Positions 58 to 2,805 of a stretch of DNA of 34,393 nucleotides are shown piece by piece. The notes under the pieces were generated by a model that worked only from the letters and a program-made list of their open reading frames with translations, was not told the origin of the DNA and did not search any database. Each line of letters opens with the position of its first letter. Position 1 is the stretch's first letter. This DNA comes from Pseudonocardiales bacterium (GTDB lineage Bacteria > Actinomycetota > Actinomycetes > Mycobacteriales > Pseudonocardiaceae). Both the position numbers and the translations under genes were made by a program. The stretch is from contig QHBY01000082.1 of assembly GCA_003244245.1 (NCBI GenBank), positions 19,633 to 54,025 of the forward strand. The letters are read 5' to 3'.

Positions 58-1344
58 ATGAACAAGTACCAGAAGAACACGACGAGCGCGAAGGCACCGG
101 TGCTGCCTGAAGCAGTGTCGGTGGTGATGGCTGAGCTGGCCGGTGATGTGCAGGAGGGTCTGCTGGCCATGGCAGTGGGCACCGGGCTGCAGGTGATGGC
201 CGCGATGATGAACGCCGACGTGGAGGCGGTGTGCGGACCGCGAGGCAAGCACGACCCAGCCCGCACCGCGACCCGGCACGGCAGTGAGGACGGCTCGGTG
301 ACCCTGGGTGGGCGTCGGGTGCCGGTGACCCGCCCGCGTATGCGAGCCACGGATGGTTCGGGCGAGTTGCCGGTCGAGTCCTATGAGCTGTTCTCCTCCA
401 CCGAGGTGCTGGGCAGGATGGCGATGGCCCGCATGCTCGCCGGCCTGTCGACGCGCCGCTACCCGGTCGGACTGGAACCGGTCGGACAGCGCGTCGAAGC
501 CTCCGCTCGGTCGACGAGCAAGTCCGCGGTGAGCAGGCGGTTCGTCGCGGCGACCGAGACCGCGCTGGGCGAGTTGCTCGCCGCCGAACTGTCCGGGCTG
601 GATCTGGTGGCGTTGATGCTCGACGGCGTGCACTTCGGCGAGCACCTGTGCGTGGTCGCCCTGGGTATCGGCATCGACGGCGTCAAGCACCCACTCGGGC
701 TGGCCGAAGGCAGTACGGAGAACACCAGCGTGGTCACCGATCTGCTGAGCGGGCTGCGGGATCGCGGTCTGGACACCACACGGCCGATCTTCATCGGTCT
801 CGACGGCGGCAAGGCGTTGCGGGCCGCGGTGGTGCGTGTGTTCGACCACCCCGTGATCGGTCGCTGCCAACTCCACAAGTTGCGCAACGTCGCCGACAAG
901 CTGCCCGATCACCTGGCCACGACAGTGACCAAGCGGATGCGGGCGGCCTACCACGCCGAGTCCGCGCTCATCGCCCAGGCGCAGCTCGAGGCATTGGCCA
1001 AAGAGCTCGAACGCACCCACCCCGGCGCCGCCGGCAGCCTGCGCGAAGGCCTGGCCGAGACGCTGACCGTGCTACGCCTGAACGTGCCGCCCACCCTCGC
1101 GCGCACGCTGCGCTCGACCAACAGCATCGAGTCGATGATCTCCATCGCACGCAACCACTCCAGCAACGTGAAGAACTGGCAGAACGGCACCATGGCGCTG
1201 CGCTGGTGCGCCGCCGGCATGATCGAAGCCCGCAGCCAGTTCCGCCGCGTCAACGGCCACCTGCACCTGCCAGCACTCCGCATCGCGCTCGATGAGCATG
1301 TCGCCGCCGAAACTGATGCTCCTATCTGCCGTCAAGCGGCATGA
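58..1344 (+). CDS. IS256-family (mutator type) transposase; native C-terminus displaced by IS110 insertion after codon 1312-1314
   Basis: Motifs such as MLDGVHFGEHLCVVALGIGIDGVKHPLGLAEGSTEN and LRSTNSIESMISIARNHSSNVKNWQNGTMALRW typical of IS256 transposases. ATG at 58 after the track ORF start at 16. The last ten codons read into IS110 sequence. Confidence 0.88.
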   Translation: MNKYQKNTTSAKAPVLPEAVSVVMAELAGDVQEGLLAMAVGTGLQVMAAMMNADVEAVCGPRGKHDPARTATRHGSEDGSVTLGGRRVPVTRPRMRATDGSGELPVESYELFSSTEVLGRMAMARMLAGLSTRRYPVGLEPVGQRVEASARSTSKSAVSRRFVAATETALGELLAAELSGLDLVALMLDGVHFGEHLCVVALGIGIDGVKHPLGLAEGSTENTSVVTDLLSGLRDRGLDTTRPIFIGLDGGKALRAAVVRVFDHPVIGRCQLHKLRNVADKLPDHLATTVTKRMRAAYHAESALIAQAQLEALAKELERTHPGAAGSLREGLAETLTVLRLNVPPTLARTLRSTNSIESMISIARNHSSNVKNWQNGTMALRWCAAGMIEARSQFRRVNGHLHLPALRIALDEHVAAETDAPICRQAA

Positions 1345-2543
1345 AGCCATCGGCGGTATTGGTCGGCGAGGGTGTCGTCTCGTCGCAGGCCGCGCTCGAG
1401 TTCGGAGATAACGCTCGGCCAGACAGCGAAGTGGTTCGCTGCTGCGGTCAGCGTGAGGTTCTTCCTCTGGCGCAGTGGCCGGAGGTCGTCGACGGCGGGG
1501 ACGGTGATCGGGGTGGCGAGGTAGCGGAAGATCTCACGGGCGATGGCTCGTTTGAGTTTGCGTTGGACCTCTTTGCTGGACAGGCCTTTGGCGCGTTGGG
1601 CGGCGACGTAGGCGCGGGTGCGCGGGTCGCTGCTCATGCGGACCAGGGCGATGCGGTGCAGGGCGCCGTTGGCGGCGCGGTCGCCGCCGCGGTTGAGCCG
1701 GTGGCGCACGGTCTTGCCCGATGAGGCGGGGATGGGACTGGCGCCGCAGAGCGCGGCGAAGGCGGCTTCGGAGCGGAACCGGTCGGGGTTGCCGCCGGCG
1801 GTGATCAGCAGCTGGGCTGCGGTGTCCGGTCCGACTCCGTAGGCGCCGCGCAGGCCGGGATTGGCTGCGGTGACGAGTTGGTCGAGGTGCTTGCCGAGCT
1901 GTTCGTGTTCGTCCTTGAGTTGTTGGCAGCGGGCCGCGAGTGTCTTCAACGACACGAGCACGGCCTGTTCGGCGGCCGGACGGGTGGTGGTGATCCGCAT
2001 CCTGGCCAGGGCGTTGATCCGCTTCTCGCCGGCCAGAGCCCGGTATTTCTCGCGGATGTCGGCCGGGGCGACGACGAGTTGGTGGAAGATCTGCACCATC
2101 GCCGCGGTGCGGGCCTTCATCGCCGAGCGGCGGGCGTTGTGCAGGGCACGGATGCCCTCGACCACGCTGGCGTCCTTGACCGGCGTCACCCGGTGCATCG
2201 AGGCGGCGGCGCGGGCAGTTTGGTAGGCGTCGATCGGGTCGGACTTGCCCAGCCGTCGCCGCTCAGCCCGGTCCGGGCGCATTACCTCCACCACGACCAG
2301 GCCGTCAGCCAGCGCGGCTCGTGCGATGCCGGCGCCATAGGACGACGAGCCCTCGATCCCGATCGCGATCAGCTCGCCGAGGCTGGCCAAGAACGCCAGC
2401 GCACGCCGATAACCGCTTGGGGTGGTGGGGAACTCGCGATCGTCGAGGTCTCGGCCGCGGTCGCTGACCGCGGCCACGTGAATCGTCGCGTCGTGGGTGT
2501 CCACGCCACCGAACACCTGCTCGGACTCGCTGGGAAATGTCAT
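1332..2543 (-). CDS. IS110-family transposase (RuvC-like DEDD recombinase) with C-terminal HTH-like extension
   Basis: FGGVDTHDATIHVAAV N-terminus; GVGPDTAAQLLITAGGNPDRFRSEAAFAALCGASPIPASSGKTVRHRLNRGGDRAANGALHRIALVRM Tnp20-type C-domain. ATG at 2543 chosen over 2561. Confidence 0.93.
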   Translation of the reverse strand: MTFPSESEQVFGGVDTHDATIHVAAVSDRGRDLDDREFPTTPSGYRRALAFLASLGELIAIGIEGSSSYGAGIARAALADGLVVVEVMRPDRAERRRLGKSDPIDAYQTARAAASMHRVTPVKDASVVEGIRALHNARRSAMKARTAAMVQIFHQLVVAPADIREKYRALAGEKRINALARMRITTTRPAAEQAVLVSLKTLAARCQQLKDEHEQLGKHLDQLVTAANPGLRGAYGVGPDTAAQLLITAGGNPDRFRSEAAFAALCGASPIPASSGKTVRHRLNRGGDRAANGALHRIALVRMSSDPRTRAYVAAQRAKGLSSKEVQRKLKRAIAREIFRYLATPITVPAVDDLRPLRQRKNLTLTAAANHFAVWPSVISELERGLRRDDTLADQYRRWLHAA

Positions 2544-2763
2544 GCTGGACCTGCCTTCCATGCGGAGGGTCAGACGTCAGCCGGGTCGGGCAGACAGGAC
2601 AGTAATGAGGCGCTCGCCAAGCTCTTATTAGGTCATGTCCGCCCGGCTGACGCCCGCTTTGCGGAGCCCCGACCGGCCGGGCACAACAATTCGAAGACAA
2701 CCCAGCAGGGCGTCAGTCGGAGACACCGAGCCACGACCGATCGAGACCGCTTCGATCATTACT
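2544..2763 (-). ncRNA. Candidate IS110 bridge RNA region (5' non-coding end of the element)
   Basis: Nested inverted repeats GTCAGCCGGG (2576-2585)/CCCGGCTGAC (2642-2651) and GACAGGAC (2593-2600)/GTCATGTC (2632-2639) around hairpin GGCGCTCGCC (2609-2618). Loop arms match the IS ends. Confidence 0.6.
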
Positions 2764-2805
2764 GTCGGTACCGTCCGTCATGATGACAACGTGATCGCCG
2801 CCTGA
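2764..2805 (+). pseudogene. 3' remnant of the interrupted IS256 transposase gene (VGTVRHDDNVIAA*)
   Basis: In-frame continuation of 58-1314 when IS110 is removed, ending at TGA 2803-2805. Confidence 0.65.

Follow-up and report, generated by a model that had tools for sequence, protein, structure and literature searches.

The window, that is, the whole stretch of 34,393 nt that was analyzed, contains about 220 nt of non-coding DNA (2544-2762) directly upstream of an IS110-type recombinase gene. A preliminary description had proposed that this segment encodes the donor-binding loop of a bridge RNA with guides for the ends of the element. The locus thus raised the questions of whether the segment encodes a bridge RNA, how far this RNA extends, and which donor and target sequences it would specify.

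Ends, core, and recombinase of the element

An intact IS110-family element of 1449 bp, including one copy of a CA core, was found at 1316-2764 (-). It interrupts an IS256/Mutator-family transposase gene within its 3' end. Excision of 1316-2764 with retention of one core copy restored a frame of 432 aa, the end of which matches uninterrupted relatives across the junction. The joined flanks and one uninterrupted relative (L145) could be aligned over 160 bp, and because this empty-site alignment has no gaps and one core copy, the element ends are exact and no target sequence was duplicated. The same genome also holds an uninterrupted paralogue (L151). The features of the element and of the interrupted gene are as follows.

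1316-2764 (-), complete IS110-family element, delimited by the ungapped alignment of the joined flanks to an uninterrupted relative
58-1315 (+), 5' part of the interrupted IS256/Mutator-family transposase gene, holding the right target (PF00872, restored frame, empty sites)
2765-2805 (+), 3' remainder of that gene, holding the left target (GGTACCGA in element sense; restored frame, empty sites)
2756-2764 (-), left-end junction, core CA plus right donor GTAATGA (sequence)
1314-1325 (-), right-end junction, left donor ATAGGAGCAT plus core CA, near-invariant in the family
1332-2543 (-), IS110 recombinase of 403 aa, DEDD_Tnp_IS110 plus Transposase_20 (Pfam, NCBIfam, AlphaFold model)
1335-1490 (-), C-terminal XRE-type helix-turn-helix (HTH) domain, residues about 352-403 (PF13560 HTH_31, model)

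The preliminary description had taken AG as the core. This assignment had to be replaced by CA (1314-1315 and 2763-2764), which is exactly what other family copies share. Across copies, the left junction reads GACA followed by the left end (LE), and the right junction reads the right end (RE) with ATCA followed by the flank, so that CA is the common core. The AG/CAG overlap in the window is accidental, the following G being shared by chance. CA was common to both junctions in most copies read, in place of the CT of an IS621-like core.

Unequal cores were observed in one sublineage (L122, L131, L143 (Pseudoclavibacter, three copies), L126, L130, L136, L138, L139, and L142). Its left junctions read GACG/TTGA or similar and its right junctions ATCA in every copy, that is, CG on the left and CA on the right. 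The right donor guide of these copies matches CG, and the right target guide mostly ends in TG. This suggests that the core of the donor may differ from that of the target.

The recombinase contains the domains PF01548 (E=4.2e-16) and PF02371 (E=5.5e-20) and scored above the cut-off of NCBIfam NF033542, "IS110 family RNA-guided transposase". D15, E64, D102, and D105 are invariant in the family and align with IS621. The AlphaFold model has a mean pLDDT of 84 and matches the structures of the IS621 and ISCro4 synaptic complexes with E values of about 1e-12. The DEDD RuvC-like and Transposase_20 domains, a long left end, a short right end (<20 nt from stop codon to core), and insertion without duplication together place the element in the IS110 group. 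Weaker fold matches of the model were Nop56/58 and TIGR-Tas proteins, and these agree with weak sequence matches of the recombinase (1335-2543 (-)) to Nop (PF01798, E=0.0023) and to TIGR-Tas (NF052498, E=2.9e-8, below cut-off).

The element belongs to an actinobacterial clade of IS110s in which the recombinase carries an additional C-terminal domain, lacking in most sister IS110s; for this domain the AlphaFold model has four helices at residues 355-402. The window fragment matched PF13560 HTH_31 with E=1.3e-4, below the Pfam cut-off, and the domain was found in 13 of the 14 clade members scanned (best E=2.2e-6). A profile of the C-terminal region matched the readable full-length members with at least 53% identity as well as three Micrococcaceae proteins with 44-48%. 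No match of this profile was obtained in other, more distant IS110s, which as a rule end near 345-370 aa, and the HTH domain is absent from IS621 (328 aa) and ISCro4 (341 aa).

Structure of the RNA

The stems, loop arms, and hairpin that had been identified by eye are all present in transposase sense. The outer stem of the donor-binding loop (DBL), GTCAGCCGGG/CCCGGCTGAC, is located at 2642-2651 and 2576-2585, the inner stem GACATGAC/GTCCTGTC contains one T.C mismatch, and the central hairpin GGCGAGCGCC lies at 2609-2618. The minimum-free-energy structure of 2544-2763 (-) contains these stems. Compared with dinucleotide shuffles the fold had a z of -2.5, and 3 of 200 shuffles folded as well, which is a modest signal when taken alone. 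The donor-binding loop is real, but the RNA reaches to about 2750, and a second, target-binding loop (TBL) at 2663-2748 had been overlooked. The structural elements of the RNA are the following.

About 2576-2750 (-), bridge RNA, target-binding loop followed by donor-binding loop (fold, covariation, covariance model)
2730-2748 (-), 5' arm of the TBL stem, two-sided changes in 15 of 17 pairs
2663-2682 (-), 3' arm of the TBL stem (covariation)
2696-2714 (-), TBL central hairpin (GACGCCC TGCT GGGTTGTC), 99% of cells paired, two-sided changes in 2 of 7 pairs
2642-2651 (-), 5' arm of the DBL outer stem, two-sided changes in 8 of 10 pairs, 76% of cells paired
2576-2585 (-), 3' arm of the DBL outer stem (covariation)
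2632-2640 (-), 5' arm of the DBL inner stem (GGACATGAC), 99% paired and almost invariant
2609-2618 (-), DBL central hairpin, both modelled pairs change on both sides

Relatives were gathered from class, order, and family searches, from plasmids, and from genome contigs. An alignment query of the genome contigs led to 80 loci; a query with the single protein gave no match in these contigs. Viral contigs contained one distant relative only, and no matching family was found in Rfam at gathering scores. For the analysis of covariation, 24 RNAs with less than 85% pairwise identity were aligned without structural input. The stems covary in these 24 diverse homologues: 27 of the 43 pairs change on both sides, with 111 such cells versus 35 in shuffles. 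The covariation score was 0.41, compared with 0.17 for shuffled alignments and at most 0.13 when the structure was slid, and 90.8% of the cells were paired versus at most 49% in the slid structures. The near-invariant inner stem of the donor-binding loop neither supports nor contradicts the structure.

A covariance model of the donor loop only was built from 22 close-clade sequences, and it matches the window at 2574-2652 (-). Outside the training set, full-length matches were found a short distance upstream of most IS110 recombinases, on the strand of the recombinase gene; the 38 matches at 38 loci are not a success rate, as these loci had been preselected for an earlier match. No match of the model was found at L002, L005, L007, L022, and the short L029. 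In three clade members (L066, L108, and L112) the usual TGACC...AT 5' arm of the donor loop is replaced, e.g., by GAACAAGTC before AGGAGC, and the score drops to 22-34 bits though the recombinases are 60-64% identical. Two further donor-loop matches in the genome of the window (G000:C287:17625-17705, E 1.6e-8, and G000:C369:1161-1242, E 1.5e-7) adjoin other IS110 recombinases, so that several bridge RNA systems coexist in this genome.

Donor guides, target guides, and a putative junction promoter

The two internal loops contain the following guides.

2600-2608 (-), right donor guide (RDG, UCAUUACUG), exact reverse complement of core plus LE at 2756-2764, covaries with LE
2619-2628 (-), putative left donor guide (LDG, AUAAGAGCUU), identical to RE ATAGGAGCAT at 8 of 10 positions
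2598-2599 (-), UC as putative handshake guide for GA at target positions 6-7, to which it is complementary; conserved, role modelled on IS621
2716-2725 (-), left target guide (LTG, UGUCUCCGAC), covaries with the left flank
2687-2692 (-), right target guide (RTG, GAAUUG), would pair with CAGTTT via two G.U wobbles; covaries with the right flank

The 3' loop arm TCATTACTG at 2600-2608 had been described as the exact reverse complement of the donor junction, and its complement CAGTAATGA was indeed found at 2756-2764. The 9-mer CAGTAATGA/TCATTACTG occurs at only these two places in 34 kb, compared with 0.08 occurrences expected from shuffles. The RDG changes together with LE. With their own LE, the guides paired at 7.21 of 9 positions versus 6.40 with the LE of other copies (z=7.6), and 0 of 20,000 permutations were as good; the guide-DNA permutations, here and below, count each distinct pair as independent and are not corrected for relatedness. 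Compensatory variants include TCATTACTG/CAGTAATGA, CCCTGACTG/CAGTCATAG, and CTCGATG/CATCGATG, and in distant lineages the LE sequences CGTTGA, CGGTAA, CTGTGA, and CACTCA are matched by the RDG sequences TCAACG, TTACCG, TCACAG, and TGAGTG, respectively.

The 5' loop arm matches RE partially, as had been noted, but at 8 of 10 positions (ATAAGAGCTT versus ATAGGAGCAT) and not at 8 of 11. Of eleven distinct LDG-RE pairs, ten agreed at 6-8 of 8 positions, and the remaining one has a shorter guide, which is unsuited to the fixed alignment. RE is near-invariant (ATAGGAGCATCA), GAGC is common to LDG and RE in most of the family, and the LDG of the window mismatches RE at 2 of 8 positions. Directly after the RDG, UC was present in all 77 members of the family whose donor loop was readable, and the targets carry GA at positions 6-7. 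The handshake guides of IS621 pair after strand exchange (PMC11208158), and by analogy UC would be the handshake guide here.

The target guides covary with the genomic flanks. For the LTG, pairing with the own left flank was 8.15 of 11 versus 6.57 with others (z=10.3; 0 of 20,000 permutations, 52 distinct pairs), and position 9 never pairs with the LTG. For the RTG, the values were 4.71 of 8 with the own right flank and 3.79 with others (z=6.8; 0 of 20,000 permutations, 48 distinct pairs), the signal being confined to the core plus roughly the next three to four bases. The match of the window copy to its target is moderate, with 6 of 10 identities on the left and four of six Watson-Crick pairs plus two wobbles on the right. 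Either the site is imperfect or the guides have drifted since insertion. The best target predicted from the guides is TCTCCGACAATTC, and the natural site is GTACCGACAGTTT.

The element ends also contain two promoter-like boxes.

1330-1335 (-), -35-like box TTGACG, which shares bases with the recombinase stop codon; TTGAC is at the same place in most reconstructed junctions
2756-2761 (-), -10-like box TAATGA; in the reconstructed RE-LE junction, its distance from TTGACG is 17 bp

When RE and LE are joined, 17 bp separate TTGACG from the downstream TAATGA, and the two boxes meet only in the circular form. Among 55 distinct reconstructed RE-LE junctions, TTGAC recurs at that place in most. IS621 builds its promoter likewise at the RE-LE junction (PMC11208158), and the junction is a putative promoter also here. 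In most of the clade, the -35-like TTGAC is made from the recombinase stop codon and its neighbours.

Taken together, we estimate a probability of about 94% that this segment represents the bridge RNA of an IS110-family element that looks active. In the model that we propose, the circular form, expression, RNA binding, catalysis, handshake pairing, and the role of the LDG are carried over from IS621. Excision would yield a circle with the promoter TTGACG-17-TAATGA at its RE-LE junction, from which the bridge RNA and the recombinase would be transcribed. In the donor-binding loop, the left guide would pair with RE, and the right guide with CA plus LE. The DEDD recombinase would then exchange strands at the shared CA, and the circle would be inserted without target duplication.

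It might be argued that the RNA is a relic, i.e., that the element is immobile and its guides are fossil, since there is one copy in the genome and the target guides fit the present site imperfectly. We regard this as improbable in view of the open frame of 403 aa with the conserved residues of the family, the intact stems, the exact RDG-LE match, and the intact putative promoter at the junction. A second close copy was not found, and the next IS110s have at most 54% identity; as this is one fragmented genome and the copy is single, activity in this host is not readable from copy number. It is very improbable that the hairpins control transposase expression as a transcriptional attenuator or mRNA leader and are unrelated to target choice, as a stable fold directly upstream of the transposase start would allow, because an attenuator does not predict loop arms that covary with the element end and the genomic flanks, and the orders LTG-hairpin-RTG and LDG-hairpin-RDG are those of IS621.

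The system resembles IS621 of E. coli (PMC11208160, PMC11208158) in the LE-encoded RNA with a target-binding and then a donor-binding loop, in the predicted pairing of left guides with bottom strands and of right guides with top strands, in the RE-LE junction promoter (here a promoter-like sequence), in the DEDD/Tnp fold, and in the dinucleotide core without target duplication. It differs in that the core is CA instead of CT, that the recombinase has a C-terminal helix-turn-helix of about 50 aa, and that the right donor guide pairs contiguously, whereas that of IS621 pairs discontiguously. The recombinase fold is shared with ISCro4 (structure 9t56), but the ISCro4 chain of 341 aa lacks the C-terminal HTH and is only about 21% identical. 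As in ISEc21/seekRNA (PMC11187229), the upstream non-coding region would give rise to an RNA whose target-matching segments follow the same order, and ISEc21 also targets the transposase gene of another IS family. In contrast to the target matching in a short RNA reported for ISEc21, both donor and target loops are supported here.

PafBC promoters as probable targets of the clade

The PafBC (RecA-NDp) promoters of actinobacteria are DNA-damage promoters (PMC8151990, PMC6789036) with the motif TGTCGG/TGTCAG-N10-TANNNT (PMC8151990). This motif, with the exact spacing, matches the insertion target of the clade. In the reverse complement of the left targets, TGTCRG followed by TANNNT at offset 16 from the core was found at 29 of 64 distinct insertions, compared with a mean of 0.03 at other offsets. 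The relaxed sequence xANNNT was present at offset 16 in 49 of the 64. Start codons follow at a fixed distance: in 34 cases ATG or GTG was located at offset 28 or 29, versus 0-4 at other offsets. Among insertions with TGTCRGTG, 17 of 38 have the -10 element, versus 2 of 84 TGTCRGTG sites elsewhere in the fetched loci (Fisher P 1.3e-8); part of the enrichment over this background may be due to the RTG reading the preceding TTG, and part to the survival of harmless insertions. In a pattern search of eight genomes the motif occurred 8-67 times per genome, and with the spacing changed by three it occurred 0-2 times.

The guides of the clade are confined to the motif, with GAC plus CA invariant and the next bases C and then C/T. 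They read the motif but not the -10 element. The guide of the window, CCGAC (= TGTCGG), fits the clade. IS110s without the HTH domain had PafBC-type targets in 0 of 22 cases (P 2e-5), although some of their left ends, placed by RDG match alone, may be misplaced. Targeting of PafBC promoters by all IS110s of the wider family was therefore rejected. The genes downstream of ten hand-picked, illustrative insertions include those for an Lhr helicase, an NAD-dependent DNA ligase, an exonuclease III-type protein, an RNase_T exonuclease, an AlkZ-like glycosylase, a WGR protein, and a DUF222-HNH protein, and others without a repair role.

We consider it quite probable that the clade targets PafBC DNA-damage promoters via the bridge RNA. 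With target guides set to TGTCRG, copies would land directly upstream and leave the motif intact. A wider proposal is that the HTH-fused clade is programmed onto these promoters, inserts 5' of the -26 motif so that promoter and gene are kept working, and uses the HTH domain to help find the promoter; in this full form it is tentative and rather unlikely. The enrichment could instead reflect survivorship, with insertion at any matching site and tolerance just upstream of promoters. Insertion leaves TGTCRG-N10-TANNNT and the gene intact, and selection would remove insertions inside genes, so that we give this explanation a credible chance at somewhat below even odds. However, the guides themselves are restricted to the motif, and IS110s without the HTH domain, under the same filter, had 0 of 22 such sites.

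The clade differs from IS621 in having target guides that match a promoter motif of the host, and from ISEc21 in that its usual target is a promoter. In the literature searched, with most subscription papers, preprints, and supplementary tables lying outside the search, no link between PafBC promoters and insertion sequences and no description of an HTH-fused CA-core clade with PafBC-directed guides were found. The surveys of 2024 may contain these RNAs among their predictions. What seems to be new is the clade, with a CA core, a recombinase fused to an HTH domain, and target guides directed at PafBC promoters. For an actinobacterial IS110 lineage that has this core and an additional DNA-binding domain, a donor code and a target code are thereby supported by sequence, and bridge-RNA tools from this group were not found in the literature searched. 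If the result for the clade is true, it represents an RNA-guided transposon with guides fixed on a host stress promoter, a target site with about 8 to 67 occurrences per genome, which seems to be insertion-tolerant. This opens the questions of whether evolution drives the guides of IS110 elements to harmless sites with many copies and whether RNA-guided target choice can be sharpened by an additional domain in the protein.

Location of the window copy in a PafBC promoter was ruled out: this copy lies within an IS256-type coding sequence, at its 3' end, with TGTCGG-N10-CATGAT. In four other clade copies (L074, L109, L125, and L137), the left flank apparently belongs to IS256-family transposase genes and there to the conserved ITD stretch (GATCACCGA). 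This stretch would be a second recurrent target of the clade, and the window copy lies elsewhere in an IS256-type gene.
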